A stretch of DNA of 46,738 bases from Candidatus Polarisedimenticolia bacterium. Its GTDB lineage: Bacteria; Acidobacteriota; Polarisedimenticolia; Gp22-AA2. The stretch's first letter is position 1. Every line of letters begins with the position of its first letter. The notes beneath the pieces were generated by a model, which saw nothing but the letters and a program-made list of their open reading frames with translations, was not told the DNA's origin and made no database searches. The stretch spans positions 1-46,738 of the forward strand of contig DASYUH010000021.1 of assembly GCA_036001465.1 (NCBI GenBank), read 5' to 3'. The position numbers were made by a program, and so were the translations under genes. This document shows, piece by piece, positions 1-15,499 of the stretch.

Positions 1-319
1 TGGGCGGAATGTTCGCCACACCCGATTCGAACCGGATCGGCGGAACGACATTCTTCATCTTGACGGTCTCGACTTTCTCGCGGGCGACCTTCCGGACCTC
101 CAGCCGATCGCCCCGCTCGCTGTCGAGCTGCTCCGGGTCCTGCGACCATCGCCGGAAGGGCTGGTCATCGGACAGATGCCGCTCGACCTGCTCGCCCGGC
201 TTGGCCTCCTCAGCCGCCTTGGCCTCGTCTGCCGGCTTGGTCTCTTCGGCCGGAGCGGCGGCCGCAGACGCGGTCAGCAGGAATCCGAGAAGCAGCGGCA
301 GGTAGCGGTGCGTGCTCAT
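1..319 (-). CDS. Exported OmpA-family protein, N-terminal part (truncated by window edge)
   Basis: An open frame of 106 codons runs from ATG at 319 off the left edge. The protein begins with a short basic end and a hydrophobic signal peptide (MSTHRYLPLLLGFLL, likely cut near the AAAAPA stretch). A charged Glu/Lys/Ala-rich linker follows. The last visible stretch, around VVPPIRFESGVANIPP, has the look of the first strand of an OmpA-like domain, which begins with a phrase such as 'I.F..G...I'. It starts 5 bases after the stop of the giant DUF11 gene, so the two are co-transcribed and probably translationally coupled. That neighbour also ends in an OmpA-like domain, so two envelope-anchoring proteins may be made together. 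The OmpA assignment rests on one motif and on context; the peptidoglycan-binding residues lie outside the window. Confidence 0.6.
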   Translation of the reverse strand, partial: MSTHRYLPLLLGFLLTASAAAAPAEETKPADEAKAAEEAKPGEQVERHLSDDQPFRRWSQDPEQLDSERGDRLEVRKVAREKVETVKMKNVVPPIRFESGVANIPP

Positions 320-324
320 GCCGT

Positions 325-3300
325 TCACCCGCCGTCCGGAACGCGCACGTTGGTTTGTTTGGGCGGGGCGCCACGCCGCCAGAAGATCTCAGGCTCGATG
401 GTGAGCCGGTAATACTTCGCCGCATCCCAGGCTTCGGTCACCTGCCGCTTGACCGCTTCCATGCGCCGCTGCACCAGCGACGCCTCCTCCGTGTCGGCGA
501 CGTAGGACAGGCGCAGCACGGACGGCGCCTTGCGCAGCTCCTCGACCAGCAGGGTGAGGCGCGGCCGCCACTGCACGCGGATGTCGGTCGTGCCCGGCTC
601 GAACGCCGCATCGGCGAGGTCGATGGCGACCACGCGGTGAATCGACGCACCGAAATTGAGCCGCAGGGCCTTGCCGCGCGTGGCGCGCTTGATCTGCAGC
701 TGGTCCGTCGACATCCGGAAGCCGCTGGGCAGGGTCCGGTCGTCGAGCTTCAGCACGAAATTGCTGCCGCGGCTTTCGTGGGGCGTGATCGCGCAGGTGA
801 TGTGGTACCGCCCGTACTGATCCGTCGTCGCCTGCAGCCCCCGTGCGGTCACCAGACGCACGCCGGCCAGGCCGCTCTCGCCATCGTCCTGCCGCCCGTT
901 GCGATTGGCGTCGTTGAAGACCTTGCCGGTCACGTCGGTGCAATCGAACGTCGGATCGGGCAGGACGCGCACGGTGGCGGTCGCTTCGCCGGTGATCGCA
1001 GCCCCGGACACGCCGTTCACCACCTGCGCGCGGTTCACGTACTCGCCCTCGGTGACGCCGGCGCCCACGGCGAGCAGCAGTTTCACCGTGCGCACCTGGG
1101 TGCCCGTGAAGTCGAGGCCGCTCCAGCTGAGATCGAGGCCGGCGATCGACGGCTCGGTCGGCACGTCGTCGAGCCGCGCGGAGCCCGCGACGTAGGCGAA
1201 TCCCGCCGGGACGTGGTCCACGAGGTTCACGCCCGTGATCAGCAGGCCGGACACGTTGTTGACGGTGATCACGTACGGAACGAGCTGCCCGCGGGTGACG
1301 TTGAGCAGCGGCGTTGTCTTGGAGATCGTGATCGCGCCGCTCAGCACCGGATCGAGCGGGATGTGGTTGTTGAAGATCTGGTTCGAGCCGGGCGGCTGGG
1401 CGACGACCAGCTGGTTCAACGTCAGAAGGACGTGGTAGCTCGTGCCCGTGCCGATCGGAATCGATGCAGCCGGCGCGGACGCCGAAGTCTGCACTTCGCA
1501 ATACGGGACCGGGAGCGGAACGGCATCGCCCGGGCAGAGCGGCACCGAGAAGGGGGGCGGCAAAGGGCCGGACGTCGGCGGGATGATCTGCGAGTAGCCC
1601 GCGACGTACGTGGTCGGGGGCGCCGTCACCTGGATGAGGTAATCACCGCCGCTCGGGCAGGCCGGGTCGCTGAAGTTGACGTCGAACTTGTAATAGCCGT
1701 CCGCGAGGGTGACCTGCCCCTGCTGGGCCGCATCGTCGAAGCAGCCCGTCGGCAGGGGCGAGCCGCTGCCGGCATTCAGCAGCGTGAGGGTCGCCCCCGG
1801 CACCGGGATGCGCGCCATCGAGTTGTAGACGACGCCGTTCGGATCGATCGGGAGGTTCAGGCCCTGCAGATTGACGCCGGGGGGCACGATGATGTCGGTG
1901 ATCTGCTGCAGGCCGGGTCCGTTCGTGAACGGCGAGGAAGCCCGGCCGAGAAGCGCGGTGTTGATGCCCGCGCCGGGCGCGCGGAACCGCAGCTCGTAGA
2001 CGACGCCGTTCAGGTCGTTCGGCTCGACGCCGAGGATGCGATAGGCGCCGTTTGCGTCCGTGAGCACCGACTGCCACAGCAGGGTGTCGCGGTACAGATC
2101 CACCGTCCAGCCCGCCAGCGCCCGCTCGCCGGAATCGTGGAAATCGTCGAAGTCGGCGTCGTGCCAGGCCGACCCGCTCAGCACGGAGACTCCGGGGATC
2201 CCGCCGACGACGATCGAGACGCTGGCGCTCGCCGTCTGGGTGGGAGTGTTCCAGGCGACCACGCCGGTGTTCGTGACCAGCGTCCCCAGCGCGAGGCCCG
2301 GATCGAGAATGGCCCGGAACCTGAGAACCACGACCGCGCCCGGCGCCAGCGCTCCGTTGACCGCGGCGTAATTGGCGGTGATGGTCGAGCCGGCAACACT
2401 GACGCCTGCCGTCGAGCCGTTCATCGTCGCCGACCCGGGGACATAGGCGAGCTGGCCGGCGGGGAGGGTGTCGGTGAGGACCACGTTGAGGGCGTCGAGC
2501 GCCGCGATGTTCGTCGCCGTGACGACGTACTCGAGAGTGGAGCCGGGAAGGGCCGGGCCGCCGCCGACCACGGCGACCTGCTTCGTGATCGCAAGCTGCT
2601 GGACGGCCCCCACCACCACGACCGTCGGCTCGGGGCCCGTCGCCGGATTGCCATCGCCGTCGGTCAACAGGTTGGGCAGCTCCACGCTGTCGACCACGGC
2701 CTGGTTGACGATCAGCGTGCCGGCGGGCGTGCCGGCGTCGACCAGAAGCTCGAACTGGAGCACGGCCGTTTCCCCTGGCGAGATCGTGCCGGCGCCCGGG
2801 CCCGGAAGCGGCGGCGTCAGGTCGGACGAGCTGATATCGATGCCCGCAGCGAGCGGGGACGTGCCCGCGACATCCGGGACCGCCGTGCCGTTCAGGGTCG
2901 TGCTGCCCGCCACGTAGGTGGTATTCGCCGGAACCGAATCGGTCAGGACGACGCCCGTGGCGGGAATAGTCCCGGAATTCTGCACCGTGATCGTGTAGCG
3001 CAGCGTGTCGAGCGGTTCGACGATGCCCGGCGTTCCCAGATCGTTGGACAGCGCGGCGCTCTTCTCCGCATAGAGCAGCGGGAAGTTGCCGACGATGTCC
3101 CGTGTCGGATCGTCGGGGATCGGCGTGTCCGGGTCGTCGGACGGCTGATCGACGATGCCGCTGGCGACGGCGGTGACGAAGCCCTGGTTCGAGATCACCG
3201 TGCCGTCGGGGACAGTCGGGTTCACGACCACGTCGAAGGTGATGGTCGCGACGTTGGCCGGAGGGCTGGACGCGTCGGCGGGCATCGAGCCCGGCGTCGG

Positions 3301-5454
3301 ATCGCTCGGCGGGTGGATCAGCATGCCGTTCACGAGCGGCGACAGCCCGCCGACGTCCGCGACCACAGTACCGTTCAAGGTCGTGCTGCCCGCGACATAG
3401 GTGGTGTTCACCGGCACCGCGTCGCGCAGCACCACGTTGACGGCGTTCTCGCTGCCGATGTTGGCGACCGTGATGGTGTAGCGCAGCGTCTCGCCGGCGA
3501 GCAGGACGTTCGGGTCGCCGGTGAGGTCGGTCGAGATCTTCTGGATGCGGAAGGCGGGCGCCGAAACGATCGTCACCCGCGTCGGATCCTCGTCGCCCGG
3601 AACCAGGGGATCGGCGGTGCCGTTGACCGTCGGGTCGTCGCTCACGCCCAGGAGCGTGCCGTCGGCCTGGCGGAACGCCGCCTGGTTGGTGACGACCGAG
3701 CCGTTGGCGAGCGCCGGCCTCAGAGTGATGTCGAACACGATGAGGAGCTGGCTGGCCACCGGGAGGCTCAGGTTGCGGACGTCGAGGACTCCGGTGCCGC
3801 TGGGGCCGCCGTTGCTATTCGTGTTGGTGACGTCGGCGCCAGCGGGGACGCTCACGAGGGTCAAGGTGCCGGCCGCGAAGGCCGGCACGGCGTTGAGCGC
3901 GTCCATCACGTCGTCGATGCGGAAACCGGCGAGCGGCTGGTCGGTGGTCTGGAAGCGCAGCGTGTAGCGCAGCGTGTCGCCGGGCGCGGCCGTCGTCGCG
4001 GGATTCGCGCCGCTGGTCAGGTTGGCGACGGTCTTCTCGAAGAAGTAGCCGAAGAGGTCGACCGTGACGGTGTGGGCGTCCTCGTGGTCCAGGACGCCGA
4101 CCGTGCCGTTGGTCAATGTCCGAGTGGAGACCACGCGATCGGGGTTGCTGCTGTCGCCGTTGAACCACTGGATGGCGCCGGCGACGTTGGTGAGCGTGAC
4201 GCCGTCCTGGGTGCCGGCGTCGAGCTGCGTCCGGTAACTGACGATCAGCCGCTCGGTCGGGCCGATCCGCGCCGCGGCCGTCAGCATCGTGAGGTCGAGC
4301 CGGCAGGCGGGCGCGCCGCTCCAGCTCAGCGAGTAGTCGGTGCCGGCGACGAGGGGGCCCTTGCCCGGGACCGGAGTGACGCCGTCGGCCGCGAACACCC
4401 GGGCGCTCAGGATTTCGGGCGTCAGGTCGCACATGCCGCCGGTCGGGCCGTCCGGGAACAGGTCGCGCAGGGAGACGTCCCAGGCGTCAGTCAGCCCCGT
4501 GTTTTGGACGTCGAGGGTGAAGTTGCCCCACTGACCCAGGTTCATCGTCGCCGGCCCCGACTTGTCGACGACCAGCGCCGGCCCGGAGATGGTCAGGGGG
4601 GGCGTGATGCCCCACTCGCCCGGCAGCGGCTCGTAGAACACGTTCTCGATGAGCCGCCCGAAGTCCCACTTGGCGGTGTTGATGAACTGCGTTCCCGGCG
4701 CGTTCACCGGCGTGTTGTTCAGGACGACCGTGAGGTTGATGACGAACTGCCGGCCGGCATCGACGATGGGGATGTTGTCCCAGGTCAGGAGCCCGCCGAC
4801 GTTGGTGAACGTGTGCGGCACCGGCGTGCCGTCGTCGAGCCAGGTGGCGGTGTAGCCCACGAAGCTGAGATCCACCCCCGTGGCGTTCAGGTCGTCGGTG
4901 ATCGTGATGCTGTGAAGGTCGTTCACCGACCCCTGGAAGTTGATGACGGTGCCGGTGGCCGGGTCGAACAGGACCGGGATGATCAGGCTCCAGGTGAAGG
5001 GGACGCCTATGGTGACGAAAGGCGGGCCCGGCGGATTCTGCTTGTCGATCTTCTCGACCGGGATCAGGAGGTTCTGGCAGTTCTGCTTGATGTCGCTGGA
5101 CGAGCCGTTGACGAACCAGATCTTGTTTTTGTGAGACGCGTTGCACGACATGCTGCCCGTGTGCACGACGTTGTCGAAGATGACCAGCACTCCCCTGAGG
5201 GGCCCGAGAAAGCTGAAGTTGCTGGTCAGCGGGTTGGACGCGGGGTAGTTCTGGATCCTGCAATTGCCGTCGATGTTGATCTGGGCGGGAGGGACGGGGT
5301 AATTGACGAAGCCGTCGACGATGCCGCCGGCATCGGCGACGCAGTCGATCGCCAGCGCCGGGGCGGCGGCCAGCAGCGACAGGGTGAAGGCGCACAGCAG
5401 GAGTCCTGTCCAGCTGAAGACCGCCCTCGTGGTGCTCGTGTCGCTCGAGGCCAT
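325..5454 (-). CDS. Giant secreted DUF11/SdrB-repeat surface protein with OmpA-like C-terminus
   Basis: The product is 1709 residues. I chose ATG at 5454 over an in-frame start at 5475 because a G-rich ribosome binding site (5458-5465) lies just before it and the signal peptide ending in APALA then begins properly. At least six DUF11-type beta-sandwich repeats are visible, near residues 290, 470, 635, 790, 950 and 1370, with phrases such as TLRYTITVANIG and PANTTYVAGSTTLNG. SdrD B-like (Cna-B type) modules lie near 1090-1200 (SAWHDADFDDFHDSGE) and 1505-1560 (KVFNDANRNGRQDDGE). Residues from about 1600 to the end look like an OmpA-type domain (AFEPGTTDIRVQW, then RLSYVADTE and QRRMEAVKRQV). 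Such proteins are secreted, often adhesive, and the OmpA-like end could hold it at the peptidoglycan. It is the last complete gene of the ExbB/ExbD/AgmX operon and is preceded by a c-di-GMP riboswitch. Confidence 0.85.
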   Translation of the reverse strand: MASSDTSTTRAVFSWTGLLLCAFTLSLLAAAPALAIDCVADAGGIVDGFVNYPVPPAQINIDGNCRIQNYPASNPLTSNFSFLGPLRGVLVIFDNVVHTGSMSCNASHKNKIWFVNGSSSDIKQNCQNLLIPVEKIDKQNPPGPPFVTIGVPFTWSLIIPVLFDPATGTVINFQGSVNDLHSITITDDLNATGVDLSFVGYTATWLDDGTPVPHTFTNVGGLLTWDNIPIVDAGRQFVINLTVVLNNTPVNAPGTQFINTAKWDFGRLIENVFYEPLPGEWGITPPLTISGPALVVDKSGPATMNLGQWGNFTLDVQNTGLTDAWDVSLRDLFPDGPTGGMCDLTPEILSARVFAADGVTPVPGKGPLVAGTDYSLSWSGAPACRLDLTMLTAAARIGPTERLIVSYRTQLDAGTQDGVTLTNVAGAIQWFNGDSSNPDRVVSTRTLTNGTVGVLDHEDAHTVTVDLFGYFFEKTVANLTSGANPATTAAPGDTLRYTLRFQTTDQPLAGFRIDDVMDALNAVPAFAAGTLTLVSVPAGADVTNTNSNGGPSGTGVLDVRNLSLPVASQLLIVFDITLRPALANGSVVTNQAAFRQADGTLLGVSDDPTVNGTADPLVPGDEDPTRVTIVSAPAFRIQKISTDLTGDPNVLLAGETLRYTITVANIGSENAVNVVLRDAVPVNTTYVAGSTTLNGTVVADVGGLSPLVNGMLIHPPSDPTPGSMPADASSPPANVATITFDVVVNPTVPDGTVISNQGFVTAVASGIVDQPSDDPDTPIPDDPTRDIVGNFPLLYAEKSAALSNDLGTPGIVEPLDTLRYTITVQNSGTIPATGVVLTDSVPANTTYVAGSTTLNGTAVPDVAGTSPLAAGIDISSSDLTPPLPGPGAGTISPGETAVLQFELLVDAGTPAGTLIVNQAVVDSVELPNLLTDGDGNPATGPEPTVVVVGAVQQLAITKQVAVVGGGPALPGSTLEYVVTATNIAALDALNVVLTDTLPAGQLAYVPGSATMNGSTAGVSVAGSTITANYAAVNGALAPGAVVVLRFRAILDPGLALGTLVTNTGVVAWNTPTQTASASVSIVVGGIPGVSVLSGSAWHDADFDDFHDSGERALAGWTVDLYRDTLLWQSVLTDANGAYRILGVEPNDLNGVVYELRFRAPGAGINTALLGRASSPFTNGPGLQQITDIIVPPGVNLQGLNLPIDPNGVVYNSMARIPVPGATLTLLNAGSGSPLPTGCFDDAAQQGQVTLADGYYKFDVNFSDPACPSGGDYLIQVTAPPTTYVAGYSQIIPPTSGPLPPPFSVPLCPGDAVPLPVPYCEVQTSASAPAASIPIGTGTSYHVLLTLNQLVVAQPPGSNQIFNNHIPLDPVLSGAITISKTTPLLNVTRGQLVPYVITVNNVSGLLITGVNLVDHVPAGFAYVAGSARLDDVPTEPSIAGLDLSWSGLDFTGTQVRTVKLLLAVGAGVTEGEYVNRAQVVNGVSGAAITGEATATVRVLPDPTFDCTDVTGKVFNDANRNGRQDDGESGLAGVRLVTARGLQATTDQYGRYHITCAITPHESRGSNFVLKLDDRTLPSGFRMSTDQLQIKRATRGKALRLNFGASIHRVVAIDLADAAFEPGTTDIRVQWRPRLTLLVEELRKAPSVLRLSYVADTEEASLVQRRMEAVKRQVTEAWDAAKYYRLTIEPEIFWRRGAPPKQTNVRVPDGG

Positions 5455-5457
5455 GAA

Positions 5458-5505
5458 CCCCCCCCGTCCACTCACCAGGCGATCGCATCGCCAATGGGAC
5501 CGGGG
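5458..5505 (-). promoter_or_regulatory. Possible ribosome-binding-site sequestering stem (riboswitch expression platform)
   Basis: In the RNA, CCCCGGTCC (bases 5505-5497) can pair, with one bulged base, with GGACGGGG (5469-5462), which contains the Shine-Dalgarno tract of the DUF11 gene. The loop holds a smaller hairpin, GGCGAT/ATCGCC. No U-tract follows any hairpin here, so control of translation is more likely than transcription termination. This is a pairing seen by eye and is inferred, not demonstrated. Confidence 0.4.
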
Positions 5506-5524
5506 CAGTCCATGTTGTGGACTG
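5506..5524 (-). other. Perfect hairpin abutting the riboswitch aptamer
   Basis: In the minus-strand RNA, CAGTCCA and TGGACTG form a 7-bp perfect stem with a 5-base loop (CAACA). It starts immediately after the 3' strand of the aptamer P1 stem (5525), so stacking on, or competition with, P1 is possible. No run of U follows, so it is not an intrinsic terminator. It may be the switching element of the expression platform. Confidence 0.5.
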
Positions 5525-5619
5525 GATTCCGGCGGTCCCGCCGTCCTATGGCCCCCTGGGCCCGTTAGACCGGTGACTTTGCGTGGCCATCTTTCAATGG
5601 CTTTGCCTTTGTCAGAATC
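5525..5619 (-). promoter_or_regulatory. c-di-GMP-I (GEMM-I) riboswitch
   Basis: The minus strand carries the GEMM-I core in order. P1 is GATTC (5619-5615) closing with GAATC (5529-5525). GGCAAA (5607-5602) is followed by a 6-bp stem GCCATT/GATGGC capped by a GAAA tetraloop (5595-5592). Next comes ACGCAAAG (5584-5577), then CCGGTCTAA ending near 5565, then a GGCCC/GGGCC hairpin, then TAGGACGGCGGG (5548-5537). Aligned to the Vibrio cholerae Vc2 aptamer, the base matching G20 is G (5607) and that matching A47 is A (5580). Both contact the ligand, and G20 points to c-di-GMP rather than cGAMP. The aptamer sits in the 218-base gap between the AgmX gene and the DUF11 gene, upstream of the latter. 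Whether binding turns expression on or off cannot be read with certainty. Confidence 0.92.
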
Positions 5620-5672
5620 GCGTCGGAAATCAACGAATCAGATTCTCGGGTCCTCCCATTCGGCTGCCGGCG

Positions 5673-6677
5673 TCACGCCGCCGGCAGGAAATCGATCGGG
5701 TAGACGATCGTCAGGGCCTTCACGCCCTCCTTCGGGCCGAAATTGATCGTCCGGACCCGGGCCACGACCTGAGTCGCGAGATCCGGCGCATCCATGTCCG
5801 ACGACTGCAGCACGCACATCGACACGCTGCCGTCCGGCTCGATCGTCAGGCGCAGCACCATCTGGCCGCGCAAGGTGGGGTTGTTGCGCAGCTCGCGGTT
5901 GTACAACCGGTAGAACGACGCCTTGTAGCGGTCGAACACAATCTGTATCTCTTCGTCGGTGCGGGCAGGCCCCGGCCCGTTCGCCAGCGGCCGGTCGCCT
6001 CCGCCGATGCCGGCGATCGAGCTGGTCGCGTGGGTCCCGCCGCCGCCCCCGCCGGGTCCGTTACCGAATCCACCGCCCGAGCCGCCTCCGCCGCCGCCTC
6101 CCACGCTGCGGCTCAGCGAGGCGATGTTGATGCCGCCGCTCGACCCCGGCGTATTGGTCGTCAGCGTGGAGCGTGACGAGGACCGGCCCACGTCCTCGGC
6201 GGCGCCGTAACGCGCATCGGCTCCGAGACGCGGCGCGACCTTGTCCTGTGCCAGGCTCGCGAACTTGTCCCGGAACGCCAGGATGCCGGCCTTTCCCACC
6301 CTCTGCTGTCGCAGCGCCTCCGCCCCGGGCCCCTGCTCGGGACCTTGCGGGAGCTCCGGCTTCCCCGGCCCGACGGGGCCTTCCGGGAGGTCCGGTTTCG
6401 GCTTCGGCGCGGGCGGAGGCGGGCTACCCCCCATCCGGGGCCCGGCCGGGATTTCCGCCTTCGGCAGGGGAGCCGGGACCGCGATCGGCGCTGGACGATG
6501 GAAGACCACATCCACCTGAGGTTTGATCGGCTCGCTGCGGATCAGCGCCTCCGCCGGGATCAGCATCACCAGGATGAGGGCGAGGGCATGCAGCGCGCAG
6601 CTCGTCATCATGCTGCGGGCGGACGGCGCCCCGTACGTTACAGACAGTGTTTTTCTGGATTCCACGGTTGGAGCCAA
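5673..6677 (-). CDS. AgmX/PglI-type TonB-like energy transducer
   Basis: The protein has 334 residues. The start is TTG at 6677: GAGGTG lies 5 bases upstream, overlapping the stop of the preceding exbD. An N-terminal membrane anchor (about residues 24-45) is followed by a proline-rich periplasmic stretch (about 50-125), a strikingly glycine-rich linker (about 190-235) and a C-terminal domain (about 250-334; IVFDRYKASFYRLYNREL, LRLTIEPDGSVS) of the AgmX/PglI kind, a TonB-C relative. Family members couple inner-membrane ExbB/ExbD proton-motive work to partners in the periplasm or outer membrane; in Myxococcus they correspond to GltG/GltJ of gliding motility. The adjacent exbB-exbD-exbD genes and downstream OmpA-like proteins fit that role. 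There is no TonB-box receptor nearby, so classical siderophore uptake is unlikely. Confidence 0.85.
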   Translation of the reverse strand: MAPTVESRKTLSVTYGAPSARSMMTSCALHALALILVMLIPAEALIRSEPIKPQVDVVFHRPAPIAVPAPLPKAEIPAGPRMGGSPPPPAPKPKPDLPEGPVGPGKPELPQGPEQGPGAEALRQQRVGKAGILAFRDKFASLAQDKVAPRLGADARYGAAEDVGRSSSRSTLTTNTPGSSGGINIASLSRSVGGGGGGGSGGGFGNGPGGGGGGTHATSSIAGIGGGDRPLANGPGPARTDEEIQIVFDRYKASFYRLYNRELRNNPTLRGQMVLRLTIEPDGSVSMCVLQSSDMDAPDLATQVVARVRTINFGPKEGVKALTIVYPIDFLPAA

Positions 6678-6686
6678 GGAATCACC

Positions 6687-7154
6687 TCAATCGGTCGTGA
6701 TGAATTCGATCGTCAAATCGTCGATGCTCGATTTCGCGAGATCGACGATGCGCAGGACCCCCTCGTAGTTCAAGCGGTTGTCGGCCGCGAGGAACAGCAC
6801 GCGCTTCTCCGGCGGCAGGTCGCCCAGGATCATCGCCACGCTCGCGGGCAGGTCGGCCGCGGGGATCTCGCGATCGGCCAGGGTCACGCGACAGTCGGCC
6901 GGAAGCCCATCCCCTGCCGGCGGCTCGAGGATGCGGCACGCCGTGGGCACGATGCTCAGGATGAGCTGCATTTCCTCGGCCTGCGCGGGCACAGGATTGG
7001 CGGAGGTCCGGGCGATGTTGGCGTCGTAGCCCTGCAGGAGCAGGGGGACGACGACCATGAAGATGATCAGCAGCACGAGGACCACGTCCACGAGCGGCGT
7101 GACATTGATCTCGCTTTTCAGATCGGAGCCGGATACGTCACTGTTGAGCTGCAT
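6687..7154 (-). CDS. exbD: ExbD/TolR-family proton-channel subunit (second copy)
   Basis: The product has 155 residues. It has a short cytoplasmic end, one transmembrane helix carrying the conserved proton-pathway Asp (INVTPLVDVVLVLLIIFMV), and a periplasmic domain ending in LTIEFITTD. With ExbB it should form a motor that converts proton flow into movement of the periplasmic domains. It starts 4 bases after the stop of the first exbD, with GGGGGA as ribosome binding site. The periplasmic domain differs from that of its neighbour and has an inserted stretch with two Cys (CRILEPPAGDGLPADC) that could form a disulfide. Paired, unequal ExbD proteins match AglQ/AglS of the Myxococcus gliding motor. 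Confidence 0.93.
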   Translation of the reverse strand: MQLNSDVSGSDLKSEINVTPLVDVVLVLLIIFMVVVPLLLQGYDANIARTSANPVPAQAEEMQLILSIVPTACRILEPPAGDGLPADCRVTLADREIPAADLPASVAMILGDLPPEKRVLFLAADNRLNYEGVLRIVDLAKSSIDDLTIEFITTD

Positions 7155-7158
7155 GATT

Positions 7159-7581
7159 TCAGTCCCCCTTCCCCTCGGTGCCGATACGCTTGGCGATCAG
7201 CCCCACCCCGTGGAAGCCGGCCTGCTCGACCGCGAGCATGGCCTGCCGGACTTCGCCCAGGCGGAGCCGCGCGTCGGCCCGGATCACGACCCTGGGATCG
7301 GGGTTGTCGCCCGCCGCGGCGCGCAGGCCTTCCTCGAAACGGTCGGCCGGGAACGACTGATCGTCGATCCACAGCCCGCCGGCCTCGTCGATCGTGACAA
7401 GGATGCGGTTCCGCTCGTCGCCTTGATCGCGCGGCTTCGCGGTGTCCGGCAAGGTGACATCCGGTCCCTTGCTCAGCTGCGGCGCCATCACCATGAAGAT
7501 GATCAGCAGCACGAGCACCACGTCGACGAGCGGCGTGACGTTGATGACCGCCTGCAGGCTGCTCGGCTCACCGAGCCGCAT
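7159..7581 (-). CDS. exbD: ExbD/TolR-family proton-channel subunit (first copy)
   Basis: The product has 140 residues. I chose ATG at 7581 over a longer frame to 7620 because GGAGAAGG lies just upstream and the longer form adds only an arginine run. It overlaps the end of exbB by 14 bases, so translation is coupled. One transmembrane helix bears the conserved Asp (VINVTPLVDVVLVLLIIFMV), followed by a TolR-like periplasmic domain (VTIDEAGGLWIDDQSFPADR, DARLRLGEVRQAML). It is the partner of the upstream ExbB and probably forms a mixed dimer with the second ExbD. Confidence 0.93.
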   Translation of the reverse strand: MRLGEPSSLQAVINVTPLVDVVLVLLIIFMVMAPQLSKGPDVTLPDTAKPRDQGDERNRILVTIDEAGGLWIDDQSFPADRFEEGLRAAAGDNPDPRVVIRADARLRLGEVRQAMLAVEQAGFHGVGLIAKRIGTEGKGD

Positions 7582-8290
7582 ACGCCTTCTCCGCCGCCTT
7601 GACCATCGCCGCCTTGCCATGCGGCGCCATGATCTCCGGCACCTTGAACAGGTGGTTCACGAGCTGGGACGATGCCCGGTTCAGCTCGACGTGGAACGCC
7701 TCGAGCCTGCCCGTGTAGTGGTTGAAGGCGACGACGGCCGGGATCGCGACGAAGATGCCCAGGGCCGTCGCGACCAGGGCCTCGGCGATACCGCCCGAGA
7801 CCGCAGCCATCCCGCCGGACCCCGTGGCCGCGATGCCCCGGAAGGCGTTGATGATGCCGACCACGGTGCCGAACAGGCCGATGAACGGGGCGATGGAGCC
7901 GATCGTGGCGAGAAACCCGAGACCCCGCTTCAGCTGGATCAGCGTCTCGGACATCGCGTCCCTGAGCGCGCTCGTGACCAGCTCGAGCGAGGCGATGGGA
8001 TCCCCCCCGGTCTGGCGCACGCCTTCGTACTCGAGGACGCCCGCCGAGACCACCTGCGCCACGTGGGACACCTGGTGCGCCTGCAGGGAGTCGATCAGCT
8101 CCTGGATCTCCCCCCCGCGGAGGAAGGTCACGAACACGGGCCTGAACTTCTGCGTCTGGCGCGAGGCCGCGCGGAAACGGCGGTGCTTGTCCACGATCAG
8201 CCCCACCGAAAAGATGGAGATCGCGGCGAGGCAAATCATCACCGCGGCTCCGAACAAGCCGACGTTTCCCAGCAGCTCCGTGAAACTCAT
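7568..8290 (-). CDS. exbB: MotA/TolQ/ExbB proton channel protein
   Basis: The product has 240 residues, usual for the family. It has a near-perfect ribosome binding site (AGGAGGTAG). There is an N-terminal helix (about residues 8-30), a cytoplasmic loop, and two adjacent helices in the second half with the family pattern (SIAPFIGLFGTVVGIINAF, then EALVATALGIFVAIPAVV), which carry the Thr residues of the proton path. It should form the pentameric inner-membrane stator around an ExbD dimer and power the AgmX-type transducer. It is the counterpart of AglR in the Myxococcus gliding motor and of TolQ in general. Downstream exbD overlaps it. Confidence 0.95.
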   Translation of the reverse strand: MSFTELLGNVGLFGAAVMICLAAISIFSVGLIVDKHRRFRAASRQTQKFRPVFVTFLRGGEIQELIDSLQAHQVSHVAQVVSAGVLEYEGVRQTGGDPIASLELVTSALRDAMSETLIQLKRGLGFLATIGSIAPFIGLFGTVVGIINAFRGIAATGSGGMAAVSGGIAEALVATALGIFVAIPAVVAFNHYTGRLEAFHVELNRASSQLVNHLFKVPEIMAPHGKAAMVKAAEKAYAAR

Positions 8291-8292
8291 GA

Positions 8293-8712
8293 CTACCTCC
8301 TGTGCGGCGCAGCAGCGGGCTGCGCGGCGTCGTGACGTGTCGTTGTGGACCTGACCTCGTAGTAACTCAGCACCCGCATGAACACTTCTTTGTCGATGGG
8401 TTGCCTGGAGTCGTCGAGCATCGTCGAGGAGCCGAGCGAGGCGCCGATCTCCGAGCTCTTCCAGGGGACGATGACCAGCGCCTTGGGCGCTTCCTGATTG
8501 CCCAGGACGGACATCCCGGAGAGCGATTTCGCGTCTTCCTTCTTCTTCTTGGCGTCCGCTTCCTTTTGTTCCTTCTGTTCCTTTTGTTTCGCGGCCTCTG
8601 TCCTCTGCTCCTGCTCCTTGGTGGGGGCCGCCTCGGGCTTGGCCTCGGGAGCCTCATCGGCCAGCGCCACGCCCGTCGCCAGCAGCAGCACCAACAACCA
8701 GCTCCGGCTCAT
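8293..8712 (-). CDS. Small charged exported protein of the ExbB/ExbD operon
   Basis: The product has 139 residues. The start at 8712 shares an ATGA overlap with the stop of the upstream TPR lipoprotein gene and begins a clear signal peptide ([18 protein letters not shown]). A highly charged Lys/Glu-rich stretch (about residues 25-65, probably a long helix) follows, and then a conserved-looking domain ([32 protein letters not shown]). I do not recognise the family. Its fixed position between a TPR lipoprotein and exbB suggests a periplasmic partner of the motor; this is context only. Confidence 0.75.
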
Positions 8713-9416
8713 GGTTTCTCCTGCGGGTTCTTGCGATTGCGAAGGTCGGCAATCCATTTGACGACCTCGGCGTCGTCCGGAACGATCCGGCTGTACGCCT
8801 CGTAATGCTTCAGCGCGCAGGCGGAATCCGCGAGATACAGGTCGCAGAGAATGGCGAGGTTCCTGTGCGCGAAATGAAAGTCCGCGAACTGCTCCAGTGC
8901 GGCCTCGTAGCTGGCGCGCGATTCCTCAAACTTCCCCTTGCGCCGCAGCACCAGGCCGAGCTCGTTGTAGGCGTCGGGGTGTCGTGGATTCAGCTCCAGC
9001 GCCTTGCGCAGGCTGGCCTCCGCGTGCTCCAGGTCGCCGGTGCGCGCGTACGCGATGCCGAGATCGATGTGCGCCGCCGTCACCTCGGGGGCCCGTTCGA
9101 CGACCTTGAGCAGCAGGGCGATGCCCGGCTCGTACTTCCCGTTCTTCAGCATGCGCACGGCCGACTCGTAGTCGTCGCGCACGTCGGCCGTGACCTGCAC
9201 GGGCTGCGTGATCGTGAAACCGCCTGGATCCTGCTCGACCTTCGCCTGCCCGAGGCTCGCAGGCGAGTCACCCGGCTCGGGCGTCGTGACTTTGGGGGAG
9301 CGCGCGGCGCAGCCGACGACGAGGGCCGGCGCGAGCAGCACCGGAATGACGGCGCGACGCATGCTTCGGCGCATCGTCTTCGTGGAGCGGCTCTCATCGA
9401 GGATTCGCATGCTCAT
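8709..9416 (-). CDS. TPR lipoprotein of the ExbB/ExbD operon
   Basis: The product has up to 235 residues. Starts at 9416 or 9410 are both possible; GAGGGG ends just before 9416, so 9410 has the better spacing. A lipobox (LVVGC) marks it as a lipoprotein. Residues about 85-200 contain TPR-type helix pairs ([40 protein letters not shown]), a protein-protein interaction scaffold. Its size and type recall GltE/AglT-class TPR lipoproteins of gliding systems. The signal peptide coding region is almost identical at the DNA level to that of the next TPR gene upstream (see repeats at 9306 and 12460). Confidence 0.88.
9306..9346 (-). repeat. 41-bp duplicated signal-peptide segment, copy 1
   Basis: These 41 bases match 12460-12500 at 39 positions (by eye). 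Both copies encode the hydrophobic core and lipobox ([10 protein letters not shown]) of neighbouring TPR lipoproteins whose mature parts differ, so this is a duplicated or gene-converted export signal. Confidence 0.85.
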
Positions 9417-9420
9417 CCCC

Positions 9421-12400
9421 TCAGTGGTCCACGGCCGGCGGCGCCTCTTGCGTCGCGGGAGGCGGCTCGGCTTGAGGCTTCGCCTCGGCGCCGCCCGGTG
9501 TCGGACCGGAAGGCTTCGGCACGGGGCGCCGGTACACGTACCGGTCGATCGCGTCGAGGAAGCCGTCGCTCGCTTCCTGTTTCGCGTAGCGCCCCGGCAC
9601 CATCACGGCGAGCCTGCCGAGGCTCTTCTCGATCCATGGGCTGACGACGCCTTTCTGCAGCAATTCCAGGTTCTTCTTGTGCGTCGCGATCGCCTTTTCC
9701 TCGAACGGGAACGCCTGCTCGTCGAGGGCCTCCTCGTACGCGGTCAGGTCCTCGGGCTGCAGGTCGGTCGGCCGCTCCGACTCCGCCAGGGCCCGGCTGA
9801 AGTCGAAGTAGGTCTCCGCCAGGTAATACGTCGCGGCCGCCGTCACGTCGGCGATCTCGTAGTCCACCAGCCGATCCATGGCCTCGATCGCGGCATCCAT
9901 GCGCTGCTGCTTCTCCTGCAGGCTGGCCTCGAACGGCTGCCGCAGCTTGACGGTCGTGAACTCCTGGTAGACGTGCTCCGCGAGGACCAGCGCCGAACGT
10001 CCGGCGAGCGTCCGGGTGCGAGCGGTCCTCTCGGGTCCGGCCTTCGCATCGATGCGGACGATCTCCTCCAGCTCCTGCCGGTAGAGCGACTCGTCGTTCG
10101 CCGCCTTGTGCAGCCCGGCGATCTTGAACCGGGTGTCGAGGGCGGCTTCGAGCGGCTTGGGAAACTGCTTGACGTAGCGCGTGTACACGTCCAGCGCGCG
10201 ATCCGGGGCCTTGGACTGCTCGTAGAGGTCTCCCGCGACCAGCATCGCCTCGCTGCGCAACGCCGGATCCTCGGCCTGGGATGCGATCCGCTCGTATTCG
10301 CCGGCGGCGCGCGACAGCTGGCCGCTCTGCTTGTAGGCGAGGGCGATCTGCCGGGTGGCCTCGGCTTGAAGCTTGTGCTCGGGGTAGGCGGTGCGGAACG
10401 CTTCGAGCACGGTCGCGGCCGCCGTCCAGTCCTGCAGCCGGATGAGCGCAGAGCCCGCGTCGAACTCGGCCGCCGGACGGATGGTTGAGGTGGGCGCGGC
10501 CGTGCGTATCCTCAGGAAGTGGTCGGCGGCCGCGCGATAGTCCTGCGCCTTGTTCGCGATCTCTCCCTGCTTGTATATCGAGGCGGCGAGGTTGTCGACC
10601 AGCGCGGCGCGCGCCTTGTCCTCCTCCGGCGTGACCGCCAGCACCTGGGTGTAGGCCTGCTCGGCCTTCGGGTACTCGGCGAGCTCGAACGAGCCGTGCG
10701 CCACCACGATCCACGCGGCGCGCCGGATGGCGGCCTCGGCGCCCGGATAGGAATCGATGACCCGCTGGGCCACCGTGATGGCGGGCTGGAAGTCCTTCAT
10801 CTCGTACAGGTCGTCGGCGGCCGCGCCAAGGACGACTGCGGCCCGTTCGTGGCCCGGGAACGAGTCGGCGAACTTGAGCGAGCTCGCGATGGTCTCGCGC
10901 CTCACGGCGTCCTTCTGCGCTTCGTCCGTGATCTTCAGCTGCTCGCGGAAGGCGTAGATCGCGCTATAGCCCGCGTCGGCCGATTTCGCGTGCGGGGCGT
11001 AGCCGTAGGCCGTGCGCTCGTACTGCTTGGCCGCCTCGCCGAAATCCTTGTTCTCGAGGAGAAGATCGGCGAGCTGCAAGTTGAGCGATGGCGAATCGGC
11101 GTCCGTCGGGAAGGACTTGAGGTACTCGCCGTACCATTGCAGGGCCTCGCGATAATTCGCCGGCTTCTCGTCGGCCAGCTCCTTGTTCTGATACTGGGCG
11201 TGGTAATGGTTGGCGAGGTCCTTCAGGGTGGACTTCAGGTAGCCGATGACCTCAGCCGACTCCTCGGGCTTGAAGTGCTGCCAGTACTCGGCCTGCAGTC
11301 CGTACGTGGACGCGAACTCCTTCTTGGATTCCAGCACGAGCTTGGGGAATCCGCCCTGGGTGAAGGTCTCCACCACGCGCATGCTGAAACGCGGCGCGGC
11401 GTGGTGGAACGGATAGAGCCCCACGAACGTCCTGTAGGCCTTCGCCGCGTCGTCGTAACGCAGCTTGCTCAGGTAGTGCTCGCCCAGGCTGCTGTAGACG
11501 CGGTCCTCGTAGTCGCGATGCCCGAACTTGGAGAAATACTCCGGGACGGTCTCCGGCCCGCCGAGGTTGGTGAAGCTCAGGCTGATGACCCGGTAGGTGT
11601 CCGCGACGCGGCGCTCGTCGTCCTCCTCGTGCGTCTCATCGAACTTGTAGCCGTTCGCCACCTTGTAGTCGAGCAGCGCCATGTACTTGTTCAGGGCCTC
11701 CTCGTAGAGGTCCTGCTTGTAGAGCGTCCAGCCAAGCTTGTAGAGGGCGAGCTCGTGGTACGTCGGGTCGTGGCCCTGGCTGAGGATTGCCGAATAGGCG
11801 GCCTCGGCGTCACGGAACCGTCTCCGCGTGTAGAAGTATTCGCCCCGCCTGAACTGCACTTCGTCGATGTGCTCGGACTGCGGGTTCACGCGGATCAGGC
11901 GCTCGATGGTTTCCATGGCCTCTTCGGTGCGGCCGAGCTCGTCGTAGGCCCGCGCCTTCTGATAGAGGACCTGGTCGGTGTGCTCGTAATTCGGGTACTC
12001 GGTGAGCAGCTTGTCATAGAGGGCGATCGCCTCGAGCGGGCCCTTGGGATCCGCATCGGCGCCCTCCGCGCCGGGCGGCAAGGCGCCGGCCGTGCCGCCT
12101 GCCAGTGACACGTCCTGCGCGGTCGTCCGCCGCTCGAAATCCTGCTCGGACTCGGACGTGCCGGCGGTCGCGGCCGTGGCGGCCGGCCTTTCGGCCTGCA
12201 GGACCGAGGAGATCTGTGTGAATCCAGGTGCGGCCATTTCCCGTGGCTTGCCGTCGCCCGCCTTGAGCCCGAACTGCTTTTCGATCTGCAGGTCCGCCAG
12301 GCGTCGCATGGCCTCGGGGGTCATCTGCGTCTGCGGCGTCTCCTCGAGGAAGCGCCGGTAGCCGAGCATCGCTTGTTCGAGACCCTGCTCCACCGTCGCC

Positions 12401-12516
12401 TCCTGCAGGTCCGGCTTCACGTTGTGCAGCTCCGCCAGCGTCCCCTTGGTGGGTTGCGAGGCGCAGCCGACGACGAGAGCCGGCGCGAGCAGCATCGGAA
12501 CGGCGAGGCGGCGCAT
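9421..12516 (-). CDS. Large TPR lipoprotein (1031 residues)
   Basis: I chose ATG at 12516 because it overlaps the stop of the upstream gene (TGATG) and begins a lipoprotein signal with a lipobox (ALVVGC, Cys18); the longer frame to 12882 is a shadow. Nearly the whole mature protein is alpha-helical TPR solenoid, with pairs such as [40 protein letters not shown] and [20 protein letters not shown]. The C-terminus is proline-rich ([17 protein letters not shown]). It is presumably anchored in the outer membrane and acts as a scaffold for the proton-driven complex, in the manner of the large TPR proteins of Agl-Glt/Nfs clusters. I recall similar long TPR lipoproteins with an early 'TLAELH' phrase in gammaproteobacteria; that similarity is from memory. 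Confidence 0.9.
12460..12500 (-). repeat. 41-bp duplicated signal-peptide segment, copy 2
   Basis: This is the partner of the copy at 9306-9346, with two mismatches. It lies in the signal peptide of the 1031-residue TPR lipoprotein. Confidence 0.85.
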
Positions 12517-14399
12517 CAGGGCTTCTCCACGGCGGGCTGGGCGTGCGCGGCCCGGTCGTAGCTGTCGGCGACGCCGTAGCGCGCCTGGGTCTGCTGGTCC
12601 AGCAGGCGTCCCCGGCGGGCGGCGAGCTGGTTGATGGCGACGGTCTCGATCAGGCGTCCCTGCCGCGCCATCACGTCCTCGACGCGCTGCAGCGCATCGC
12701 CGACGCGCTCGCGAAGCCGCTCGATCTGGGAGTCGTAGCCGACGTAGCTGTGCGTCGCCGCCTGCCGGGTCCTGACGAAGGCGTCGTACTGCCGCGTGAG
12801 CGCGTCGACATGCGTATTCAATTCGTTCAGGTGCACGTGGGCCGCGGTCAGCCGCTCGGGGTACTCGGTGTCCAGCCGCCACGTGAGCGCGCCGCGCAGC
12901 CGGGCCGCGCGTTCCCGAAGCGCGGCCGTTCCGGGACGATTCGAGCGGCCGAGCTGCTTGTCGATGAGGGCGAGGCGCTCGCCGGCGATCCGCTCGTCCG
13001 TGGTCGCCAGATACTCCGGCCGCGGCGCGGTCAGCATCGCCTGCAGTCGCTCGCCGACGTGCTTGCGCTGCTCGAGGCGGAGGCGCATCCTCGAATCCAG
13101 CTCGCGGAACTGCGCGTCGACCTCCGGCAGCAGCGGCTTGTAGTTCTGCCCGCGCAGCCGGATGATGTCGTCGAACGCGTCGAGGCTGGTCTTCCAGGCC
13201 CTGAGCCTCGACTGCAGATCCTCGAGGTCGAGGTAGTTGTGCAGGGCGGTCTGGAAGTCGTGCGAGGCCATCAATTCCAGCAGGTAGTAGGTTTCAGGCG
13301 CATCGGGCAGGTTGCGCAGGCGGACGACCCAGGTTTCGTCCTGCCGGCTCTCCTCGCGGATCAGCGCATTGAGAAAGCGCCCTTCCCTGATGCTGGCGAT
13401 CGAGGCGTCGATTCTTGCGATCTGGTTGCTGTACAGCTCGAGCGCGCGCCCATACATGAGCGCGGCGCGGCCCGGCAGGTTCAGGCTGACGAACGCATGC
13501 GGCACGGCAAGCATGGCCTCCTGGACCGCGGCATCGGTCGGCTCGCGATCCACCAGGAGGTTCCACGGAACGAGCGCACGGTCGTAGTGTTCGCCCGTGG
13601 CCTCGGCCCAGCCCGCCCGCAGGAGAGCCTGGTTCGAAAACGGCCCTTCGAGGCGGACGCGGTCCAGCGACTGTTTCGCCCGCTCGGAGTTCGCCGACTC
13701 GAACAGGATGGTGCCGAGCACCAGGTTGGACTTGTCGCGGATCGCCAGATTCGCGCTGTCGCCGGCCTCCAGACGCCCGGCCTTGTCCAGCTGCTCGATC
13801 GCCTTCTGCTGCTGGCCGTCCTGCAGCAGCGCGATGCCGAGGTTGTAGTCGGCAAACCCGGCCAGGCTCGGATCGCTTTTCATCTGCGTGAGCACCTGGA
13901 CGGCCTCGCCCGGGTGGCCCGTCGCCATGAAGATGTTCGCCCGCAGCAGCTCGACGTCGCCCCTTATCTTCTCGGGCACCGGACCCTCGATCCGCGCCAG
14001 CGCCTGCTGCGCGTCGTCGAGCTGGTCCTTCTGGAAGTGGATCCGGGCGAGCCTGAACGCGGCCTCGTTCCGTACGGATGCGTCGACCGCGCCTTCGAGC
14101 ACCGCCTTGATGGCGCGCCCTGCGCGCAGGTGCATGCGGTAGTTGAGCTCGAAGTCGCCGACCGAGAATTCGGCGTCGTTGATGTGATAGTGAAGCGTAT
14201 CCAGCCTGGGCTCGTCCAGAGCCCGGTACTGGGCCAGCTCGGTGTCGAGCCGCTGGATCGCATCGAAAAACTGGCCCTGGTAGGCGTGGAAGAGCACCTC
14301 GCCGAAGTAGAGGTCCTTCAAGTCAGCGCACACGGCGGGACGGGCCGCAAGCCCCAGGGCCAGGCCGAGTCCGAGCAGGTACCGTGGCGCTCGTTGCAT
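12516..14399 (-). CDS. Exported TPR protein with coiled-coil C-terminal half
   Basis: The product has 627 residues. A Sec signal peptide (GLGLALGLAARPAVCA) is followed by TPR-like helix pairs through about residue 330 (EAAFRLARIHFQKDQLDDAQ, ADYNLGIALLQDGQQQKAIE). The second half is long, charged and helical (DSRMRLRLEQRKHVGERLQA, ESQIERLRERVGDALQRVED), likely a coiled coil. The gene follows the 181-residue protein gene by 3 bases and overlaps the next TPR gene by one. A periplasmic scaffold in the ExbB/ExbD/AgmX machine, similar in kind to GltD, is the most likely job. No enzyme motif is seen. Confidence 0.85.
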   Translation of the reverse strand: MQRAPRYLLGLGLALGLAARPAVCADLKDLYFGEVLFHAYQGQFFDAIQRLDTELAQYRALDEPRLDTLHYHINDAEFSVGDFELNYRMHLRAGRAIKAVLEGAVDASVRNEAAFRLARIHFQKDQLDDAQQALARIEGPVPEKIRGDVELLRANIFMATGHPGEAVQVLTQMKSDPSLAGFADYNLGIALLQDGQQQKAIEQLDKAGRLEAGDSANLAIRDKSNLVLGTILFESANSERAKQSLDRVRLEGPFSNQALLRAGWAEATGEHYDRALVPWNLLVDREPTDAAVQEAMLAVPHAFVSLNLPGRAALMYGRALELYSNQIARIDASIASIREGRFLNALIREESRQDETWVVRLRNLPDAPETYYLLELMASHDFQTALHNYLDLEDLQSRLRAWKTSLDAFDDIIRLRGQNYKPLLPEVDAQFRELDSRMRLRLEQRKHVGERLQAMLTAPRPEYLATTDERIAGERLALIDKQLGRSNRPGTAALRERAARLRGALTWRLDTEYPERLTAAHVHLNELNTHVDALTRQYDAFVRTRQAATHSYVGYDSQIERLRERVGDALQRVEDVMARQGRLIETVAINQLAARRGRLLDQQTQARYGVADSYDRAAHAQPAVEKP

Positions 14400-14402
14400 C
14401 GA

Positions 14403-14948
14403 TTACCATTCCCCCAGAGCGATCGGAGCGTTGCCGGAATTCGGTGCGGCCAGCGTCAGCCCGACCAGCTTCGGCTTCACTTCCTTGCGGAAGCTGAAGT
14501 GCTCTGTGCGGCTGAAGTCCGCGCCGCCCCCGAGCTTGCCGTCGACAAGCACCTCGAGCTTGTGATCCCCGGTCGCCACGTTGCCGACGTAGATCCGCTG
14601 CACGCCCCCCTTGCGCAGGGCCTCGAGCTCCTTGAAGCTGTAGATGTAGTGCGCAACAGGCTGGCCGTCGATCTGGAGCCGGACGGCGTCGAGGCGCATC
14701 GTGTCGCCCTTGGCCAGCGCGACGAAGATCGCGACCTGCGTCCCCGACGGATACAGCAGCTTCTCCTCCAGCCGGCTCAGCTCCGCCGCGATGCGGAGGA
14801 CGTCCGATTTGATCTCCTGGACCTGTTCGTCGAGGCCCCGCATCTGCTGCTGGTCGTTTTGCTCCGCCGAGCCGGGCTCACCGCCCAGGCAGAGCAGGAG
14901 CGCAAAAAATCCGGCGAGGGTGTTCGCGATCCGGTTGCGTGGGGCCAT
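14403..14948 (-). CDS. Small exported coiled-coil/beta-domain protein, first gene of the operon
   Basis: The product has 181 residues. ATG at 14948 is preceded by GGGAGGA with good spacing; the longer frame to 15143 has no such site. A hydrophobic signal peptide (about residues 7-28) is followed by a short coiled coil (DEQVQEIKSDVLRIAAELSR) and a beta-rich domain (GTQVAIFVALAKGDTMRLD, GVQRIYVGNVATGDHKLEVL). I do not recognise a named family; similar proteins are, from memory, sometimes mislabelled AraC regulators, but no DNA-binding helix is present here. It leads the operon and probably makes a periplasmic part of the complex. Confidence 0.8.
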   Translation of the reverse strand: MAPRNRIANTLAGFFALLLCLGGEPGSAEQNDQQQMRGLDEQVQEIKSDVLRIAAELSRLEEKLLYPSGTQVAIFVALAKGDTMRLDAVRLQIDGQPVAHYIYSFKELEALRKGGVQRIYVGNVATGDHKLEVLVDGKLGGGADFSRTEHFSFRKEVKPKLVGLTLAAPNSGNAPIALGEW

Positions 14949-15019
14949 GGCGTTCCTCCCTAATGAATGTCGCCGCCGGGTCGCCCGCCAGAGCGCCCGA
15001 CATCGAACCCTCCCCGAAA

Positions 15020-15049
15020 AACCTAGGTTCGAACGCGTGCCTCGATCAA
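15020..15049 (-). promoter_or_regulatory. Candidate sigma70-type promoter of the ExbB/ExbD/AgmX operon
   Basis: On the minus strand TTGATC (15049-15044) is separated by 18 bases from TAGGTT (15025-15020). The predicted start near 15013 gives a leader of about 65 bases to ATG at 14948. The -10 is imperfect, so this is tentative. It overlaps an inverted repeat (15003-15032). Confidence 0.35.
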
Positions 15050-15327
15050 GCCGATCACCAAGTCGTTCTTTCCCTGACGCTGCTCGGCCGATCGGCCTTG
15101 GCCGCCCGCAGCGGCGCCCAAAGGCTTGCAATGGCCCTGCCAAGAACGAAGTCGGCCATAGGAGCCTCCGACGGCCGGAAAATGGAGAATTCGGGTTGTC
15201 CCGGTGACAATGTGGTTATCGCGGCCATCAATTTTGTAAGCGTCGCGTCGGTTCGCCGGCAGGGCGTGTCCCGCCGATGGACGCGCCCGCCGTCGTCGAT
15301 CCCGATGCCCCCGGCGCGGCGTAGGGG

Positions 15328-15342
15328 GGCGTCAGTGACGCC
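15328..15342. repeat. 15-bp perfect inverted repeat
   Basis: GGCGTCA and TGACGCC flank a single central G. The two-fold symmetry and short length fit an operator for a dimeric regulator, or a tight hairpin. No regulator can be named. Confidence 0.6.
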
Positions 15343-15404
15343 GAACGCGAGAAGAGACTGTGAGCGCGAACCCGGCAGGCCTGCGAGGTGATGGCGAATG
15401 GTTG

Positions 15405-15423
15405 CGATCGAGCAGCTCGATCG
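15405..15423. repeat. 19-bp perfect inverted repeat
   Basis: CGATCGAGC and GCTCGATCG flank one central A. It lies 77 bases beyond the mrcB stop. It could be an operator or a stabilising 3' hairpin for the mrcB mRNA. No U-tract follows, which argues against a terminator. Confidence 0.65.
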
Positions 15424-15499
15424 AGAGCGATACTCGGAGGATGCTTGCGGCTAGTTCACGCGCGCTATGCGGCGACCACGAACGAGCGAATGAAGCCCG

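Follow-up and report, generated by a model that had tools for sequence, protein, structure and literature searches.

A c-di-GMP-I aptamer between motor-type and surface-protein genes in Acidobacteriota, predicted to switch off the surface module

The gene cluster in the window

The window, i.e., the whole stretch of 46,738 nucleotides analysed here, carries on its minus strand a cluster with the following order: a conserved ORF, a TPR protein, a large TPR protein, a TPR lipoprotein, a Lys/Glu-rich protein, ExbB, two ExbD proteins, an AgmX-type protein, an aptamer, a giant protein and one further gene. The conserved ORF (14403..15143), recognised by its conservation across loci, lies directly 5' of the gltC-like gene. 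The TPR proteins in the gltC position (12516..14399) and in the gltD position (9421..12882, start uncertain) are both conserved in motor operons; the former matches the GltC model only with E 0.004, and the latter has TPR matches. They are followed by a GltE-like TPR lipoprotein (8709..9416; TPR families, GltE model 1.3e-12), a small Lys/Glu-rich secreted protein that is kept in most operons of this kind (8293..8712), an ExbB/TolQ-like proton channel (7568..8290; PF01618 2.7e-32, TolQ model 8.3e-52), two ExbD/TolR-like proteins (7159..7620, PF02472 5.4e-23, and 6687..7154, PF02472 4.4e-11) and an AgmX/PglI/GltG-like TonB-type transducer (5673..6677; NF033768 2e-16, GltG model 4.4e-10). The coordinates of the first ExbD-like protein are those of its ORF; its true start probably lies close to the stop of exbB. 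In the stretch that runs from the TPR lipoprotein gene through the AgmX-type gene, adjacent genes overlap or are separated by no more than about 10 nt. It should be noted that the profile matches to GltG, GltE and GltC are all under the NCBIfam cut-offs; orthology of the motor genes to GltC, GltD, GltE and GltG is likely.

A core of Agl/Glt genes (AglRQS, GltC, D, E, G and one extra gene) was described as clustered in non-gliding Gammaproteobacteria and Geobacter, where its function was called unknown (Luciano et al. 2011, PMC3169522). The window holds the same kind of set, i.e., clustered genes for an ExbB-type, two ExbD-type, a TonB-like and three TPR proteins, together with one extra gene. 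It differs in belonging to Acidobacteriota and in the addition of the giant gene, an OmpA-domain gene and a riboswitch, none of which is mentioned in the passages of that paper considered here.

The giant secreted protein (325..5454, 1709 aa) consists of a signal peptide, a conserved N-terminal domain, DUF11 repeats (Pfam 7.4e-31), SdrD_B domains (4.9e-13) and a C-terminal domain, of which the last ~90 residues are modelled as beta-alpha-beta-alpha-beta. An earlier note, made from the sequence alone, had described this protein as DUF11/SdrB/OmpA. The DUF11 and SdrD_B part of this description agrees with the Pfam matches and the structure models, whereas the OmpA part does not: PF00691 was found by Pfam neither in the whole protein nor in 24 C-termini, and no OmpA protein was among the matches listed by PDB sequence search, Foldseek (also for the last ~90 residues) or VIA-align. 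The OmpA domain was detected in the next gene instead. Only the start of this gene is present (2..319), since it is cut by the contig end; it begins after a gap of 5 nt and, according to tblastn, is kept in nearly all loci. Its full-length orthologues are ~1700 aa long and contain two Pfam OmpA stretches (PF00691 7e-19 and 1.8e-24 in two of them), with a long C-terminal region that appears barrel-like by eye. The product is presumably the outer-membrane partner of the giant. Thus, at least two genes of a surface module follow the riboswitch, and its control would not be limited to the giant, in contrast to what had been proposed.

The aptamer and its predicted ligand

The element between the two modules is a genuine c-di-GMP-I (GEMM-I) aptamer on the minus strand. 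The Rfam search that the earlier note had suggested yielded a match to RF01051 at 5617-5528(-), with 65.5 bits compared to a gathering score of 35 (E 1e-10), that spans the full model (positions 1-87) and is the sole gathering-level Rfam match across the 46.7-kb window; four RF01051 matches are found in the whole genome. All the aptamer motifs listed in that note are present, and the P1 helix (GAUUCUG/CGGAAUC, 5619-5613 with 5531-5525) closes the aptamer at 5525..5619, i.e., exactly at the ends given there. In 23 orthologous aptamers, the P1-P2-P3 helices are paired in 94.6% of cells. Both-sided changes were found in 10 pairs, compared to a mean of 4.7 in shuffled controls (none of the 500 shuffles was as high) and to 2-6 pairs when the structure was slid along the alignment; P3 is mostly invariant and is, therefore, uninformative for covariation.

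Positions G20, A47 and C92 of the Vibrio cholerae element Vc2 are contacts of c-di-GMP (PMC4744006). The equivalent columns, as taken from our own alignment to Vc2 numbering, are invariant in 23 of the 23 orthologous aptamers, and this conservation of contact positions predicts c-di-GMP, rather than cGAMP, as the ligand. Sensing of 3',3'-cGAMP could be considered because cGAMP-selective GEMM-I variants are known in Geobacter (PMC8835794; PMC9262584), and some relatives of the locus are in Desulfuromonadales. We regard it as highly improbable: cGAMP binding is permitted by the change of G20 to A (PMC7288161), and this mark of cGAMP-type variants is absent, the equivalent position being G in the window and in all 23 orthologues.

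The genome contains about 18 GGDEF genes. One of these, a gene for a response-regulator/GGDEF diguanylate cyclase at 17921-19003(-), is located upstream of the cluster in the same orientation, and a PBP1-type gene separates it from the cluster; no full orthologue of this GGDEF gene was found in the flanks of the other loci compared.

Placement of the aptamer across genomes

About 53-55 nt separate the aptamer from the stop of the upstream AgmX-type gene (5673), and 71 nt separate it from the start codon (ATG) of the downstream giant (5454); it is located between these two genes and not at the head of the operon, in agreement with the earlier note. Five more genomes of the class share the order AgmX - aptamer - giant; they range from members of the same genus to members of other families. 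In total, nine of the 41 class genomes have the giant; the aptamer accompanies it in six of the nine and is absent in three.

Using the N-terminal domain of the giant, we scanned 84,980 species genomes and obtained 33 loci. One of them (L042) ends before the relevant region and was left out; thus, 32 further loci were counted. The aptamer is directly upstream of the giant in 20 of the 32 (40.8 to 83.3 bits with our own model), and the remaining 12 comprise one degenerate remnant (12.8 bits) and 11 loci without an aptamer; loci in which the giant has no aptamer before it include L035, L036 and L052. The remnant (L066:9692-9800) is a decayed GEMM-I element that still precedes the giant gene, and it is a candidate for a recent loss. 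The hosts are labelled as Acidobacteriota, Gammaproteobacteria, Myxococcota-type Deltaproteobacteria and Desulfuromonadales; they are mostly MAGs, and their labels may be imprecise. A named isolate, Peristeroidobacter agariperforans KA5-B (L053), also has the aptamer and the cluster. On a tree of the N-terminal domain, the presence of the aptamer requires 7 changes, with L042 entered as "none", i.e., as missing data; this is consistent with an aptamer that was anciently present and was lost several times. At eight giant loci without GEMM-I, no other known RNA class was found by Rfam. One locus (L061) has two aptamers (2155-2256 and 9206-9307), each before a giant-type gene, apparently as a result of duplication of the surface gene.

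Motor genes are upstream of the aptamer in most aptamer-bearing loci. In Acidobacteriota and Gammaproteobacteria, the placement is conserved, and no aptamer was found at the head of the operon in the loci searched. The Desulfuromonadales have a permuted order. One genome (G060) shows the arrangement aptamer - giant - OmpA-domain gene - conserved ORF - gltC - gltD - gltE - Lys/Glu gene - AgmX, and a second genome (G061) repeats it from the OmpA-domain gene onward on the contig analysed. Here, the motor genes have shifted from upstream to downstream, and the aptamer of G060 still adjoins the giant. This permuted order provides the strongest argument for assigning the riboswitch to the surface module. 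Because the aptamer of G060 heads the surface genes and the motor genes come after them, the riboswitch may control both modules there; the split between motor and surface would be a trait of the acidobacterial and gammaproteobacterial order and not of every member. The proposal that the riboswitch separates the outer part of the machine from its motor is, thus, in line with the conserved placement in these two groups and does not extend to the Desulfuromonadales.

We infer that the modules of the window are co-transcribed. It is conceivable that the giant and its neighbour are instead transcribed from a promoter of their own, located between agmX and the aptamer, so that motor and surface modules are separate transcripts. 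Several gammaproteobacterial loci have 200-250 nt between the agmX stop and the aptamer, which is room enough for a promoter. However, the gap is ~53 nt in the window, most leaders of its type have a similarly short one (9-112 nt), and in acidobacterial relatives without the aptamer the giant begins 14-48 nt after agmX. In addition, neither a minus-strand terminator nor a sigma-70-like promoter was found in 5000-16000, although the sigma-70 consensus says little in this phylum, the promoters of which are possibly outside the coverage of the scan. We consider separate transcripts unlikely.

The same placement in distantly related bacteria suggests a signal that acts on the surface parts apart from the motor. 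A related question is whether the two modules work together. The surface module could be a mere neighbour, i.e., the motor and surface genes could be ordinary envelope genes, with no action of the motor on the giant. The giant retains its aptamer under the changed gene order, and a gltC-like gene was not found in the L054 genome; both observations would fit such a neighbourhood. On the other hand, the giant, the OmpA-domain gene and the core genes are linked in two orders and in several phyla, and a neutral neighbourhood rarely keeps such a linkage, so that mere adjacency appears somewhat unlikely to us. If motor and surface proteins form one machine, c-di-GMP would decide whether a Glt-like machine receives its outer-surface module, with the motor left in place, and the orphan Glt core of non-gliding bacteria would handle giant DUF11 and OmpA-domain proteins. 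We propose this tentatively, at somewhat less than even odds. The Glt core of non-gliding bacteria, of unknown function in the 2011 description (PMC3169522), would then gain a testable role and a signal from the conserved link between the giant, the OmpA-domain gene and a c-di-GMP sensor.

Expression platform and relation to known systems

The switching strand of the window, GGGACCG (5533..5539, minus strand, as are all the elements below), is the 3' strand of P3 and can pair with CGGUCCC of the linker (P=0.99 in a transcript that ends before the Shine-Dalgarno site, SD). Directly after P1, the linker contains a potential hairpin, CAGUCCA...UGGACUG (5506..5524), which is seen in the sequence and forms in several orthologues. 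It is followed by an anti-Shine-Dalgarno arm, CCCCGGUCCC (5496..5505), and by the Shine-Dalgarno region, GGACGGGG (5462..5469). In the aptamer-constrained fold, the arm pairs with GGACGGGG (5469-5462), for which the mean unpaired value is 0.17 in the constrained ensemble; the arm also complements the switching strand, and the pairings are mutually exclusive.

For 16 leaders of the same type as that of the window, free folds were compared to folds in which the aptamer helices were enforced; because the leaders are related, the counts below do not represent independent trials. Enforcing the aptamer makes the SD less accessible in 14 of the 16 leaders (mean difference 0.14, compared to 0.00 for shuffled linkers), and its mean unpaired value in the enforced state is 0.17 versus 0.39 for shuffled linkers. 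The masking arm and the SD covary: the pairing is CCCCG/CGGGG in the window and CCUCG/CGAGG in most others, and L053 has a long extended stem. The hexamer CGGTCC, which is complementary to GGACCG of the aptamer, is found in 9 of the 16 linkers, compared to 0.78 expected. In transcripts ending before the SD, the probability that the linker captures GGGACC is 0.99 for the window, and it reaches 0.59 or more in 12 of the 16 leaders; L029, L041, L046 and L063 show little capture. The energies of the duplex between aptamer strand and linker, compared to shuffles, are not significant in most single loci; thus, the argument rests on the recurrence of CGGTCC and on the ensemble folds. For the full-length leader of the window at equilibrium, the SD-masked fold is favoured, with 0.17 unpaired whether or not the aptamer is enforced, and this equal masking implies that switching in the window would require kinetic (co-transcriptional) control.

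The platform is different in other groups. The two Desulfuromonadales leaders examined have an intrinsic terminator, the 5' arm of which can pair with the 3' strand of P1 before the terminator is complete, predicting that this platform is also OFF. In gammaproteobacterial leaders, it is the start codon that is masked, by a different arm; the aptamer has a mixed effect on access there, and P1 is weak in several of these leaders.

We propose the following scheme. At high c-di-GMP, the aptamer would lock GGGACCG into P3, and the freed arm CCCCGGUCCC would mask the ribosome site GGACGGGG. At low c-di-GMP, GGGACCG would capture CGGUCCC at a stage when the ribosome site has yet to be transcribed, and translation of the giant and of the neighbouring OmpA-domain gene would proceed. 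Only the downstream module would be under the control of the riboswitch, which would work mainly at the level of translation, as an OFF switch that is set co-transcriptionally; the motor may be expressed constitutively. We assign a probability of roughly 0.6 to this reading, i.e., a c-di-GMP-I riboswitch at the joint of a two-module operon that exerts kinetic, translational OFF control on the surface module only. Our confidence in the OFF direction is moderate, and it rests on co-transcriptional folding and recurrent pairings. The results suggest that c-di-GMP regulates the surface parts independently of the motor and probably turns them off.

The opposite direction, in which the same riboswitch at the same place exposes the ribosome site upon binding of c-di-GMP, would be expected if the giant were a biofilm adhesin. 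Static folds of the window fail to separate the two states, and control of surface adhesins by GEMM-I elements is known elsewhere, as the earlier note had stated: Vc1 regulates gbpA positively (PMC4744006). However, the loss of SD access in the 14 leaders, the anti-SD and capture pairings and the Desulfuromonadales terminators all give OFF, and Vc2, which has been described as the best known switch of the GEMM-I class, is classed as a translational OFF switch (PMC9262584). An ON switch is, in our estimate, quite unlikely.

The comparison to these two systems illustrates what is particular to the window. Vc2 (RF01051) resembles the window element in the three-helix aptamer, the contact bases and the translational OFF logic (PMC9262584), which is predicted here; it differs in that the window element is embedded in a cluster that resembles an operon, with motor genes of the inner envelope on one side and surface genes on the other, and in that the switching strand of the window is predicted to be the 3' strand of P3 with a separate anti-SD arm. 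Like the window element, Vc1 is a c-di-GMP-I aptamer that forms part of the leader for a secreted surface protein (PMC4744006). It is located in a 5' leader beside its own transcription start and acts positively, whereas the window element has motor genes upstream, at least two surface genes after it and a predicted negative sign. The riboswitch class is known, and its placement appears undescribed in the literature searched: in the open literature, we found no description of GEMM-I within a cluster of the Glt type or ahead of giant DUF11 genes, an absence that is weak evidence because the search covered mainly open journals. A paper in which DUF11, c-di-GMP and a riboswitch occur together (PMC11224092) does not concern riboswitch control of a gene of this kind. 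If the proposed scheme is true, the locus would be a clear natural case of a riboswitch that divides one gene cluster by cell compartment.

Other GEMM-I aptamers in the lineage precede different genes. Two aptamers of the same genome, L003 (C94:29513-29587) and L004 (C45:32827-32905), as well as L017 and L022-L026, are found before secreted proteins that appear by eye to be subtilisin-type peptidases; in this subtilisin-like group, the start codons are only ~25-45 nt past the aptamer. In L001, L005 and L010-L012, the gene after the aptamer encodes a conserved secreted protein with a length of at least about 480 aa, and in L013 and L016 it precedes proteins with several CxxCH-like motifs that resemble multihaem cytochromes. 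The aptamers L011:339-418 and L018:1501-1578 have A at the position equivalent to G20 and are possible cGAMP-type switches. Finally, L005 and L028 (G004:C215:415-494 and 878-958) are two GEMM-I matches that lie within 550 bases of each other on the same strand of a single contig and may represent a duplicated leader.
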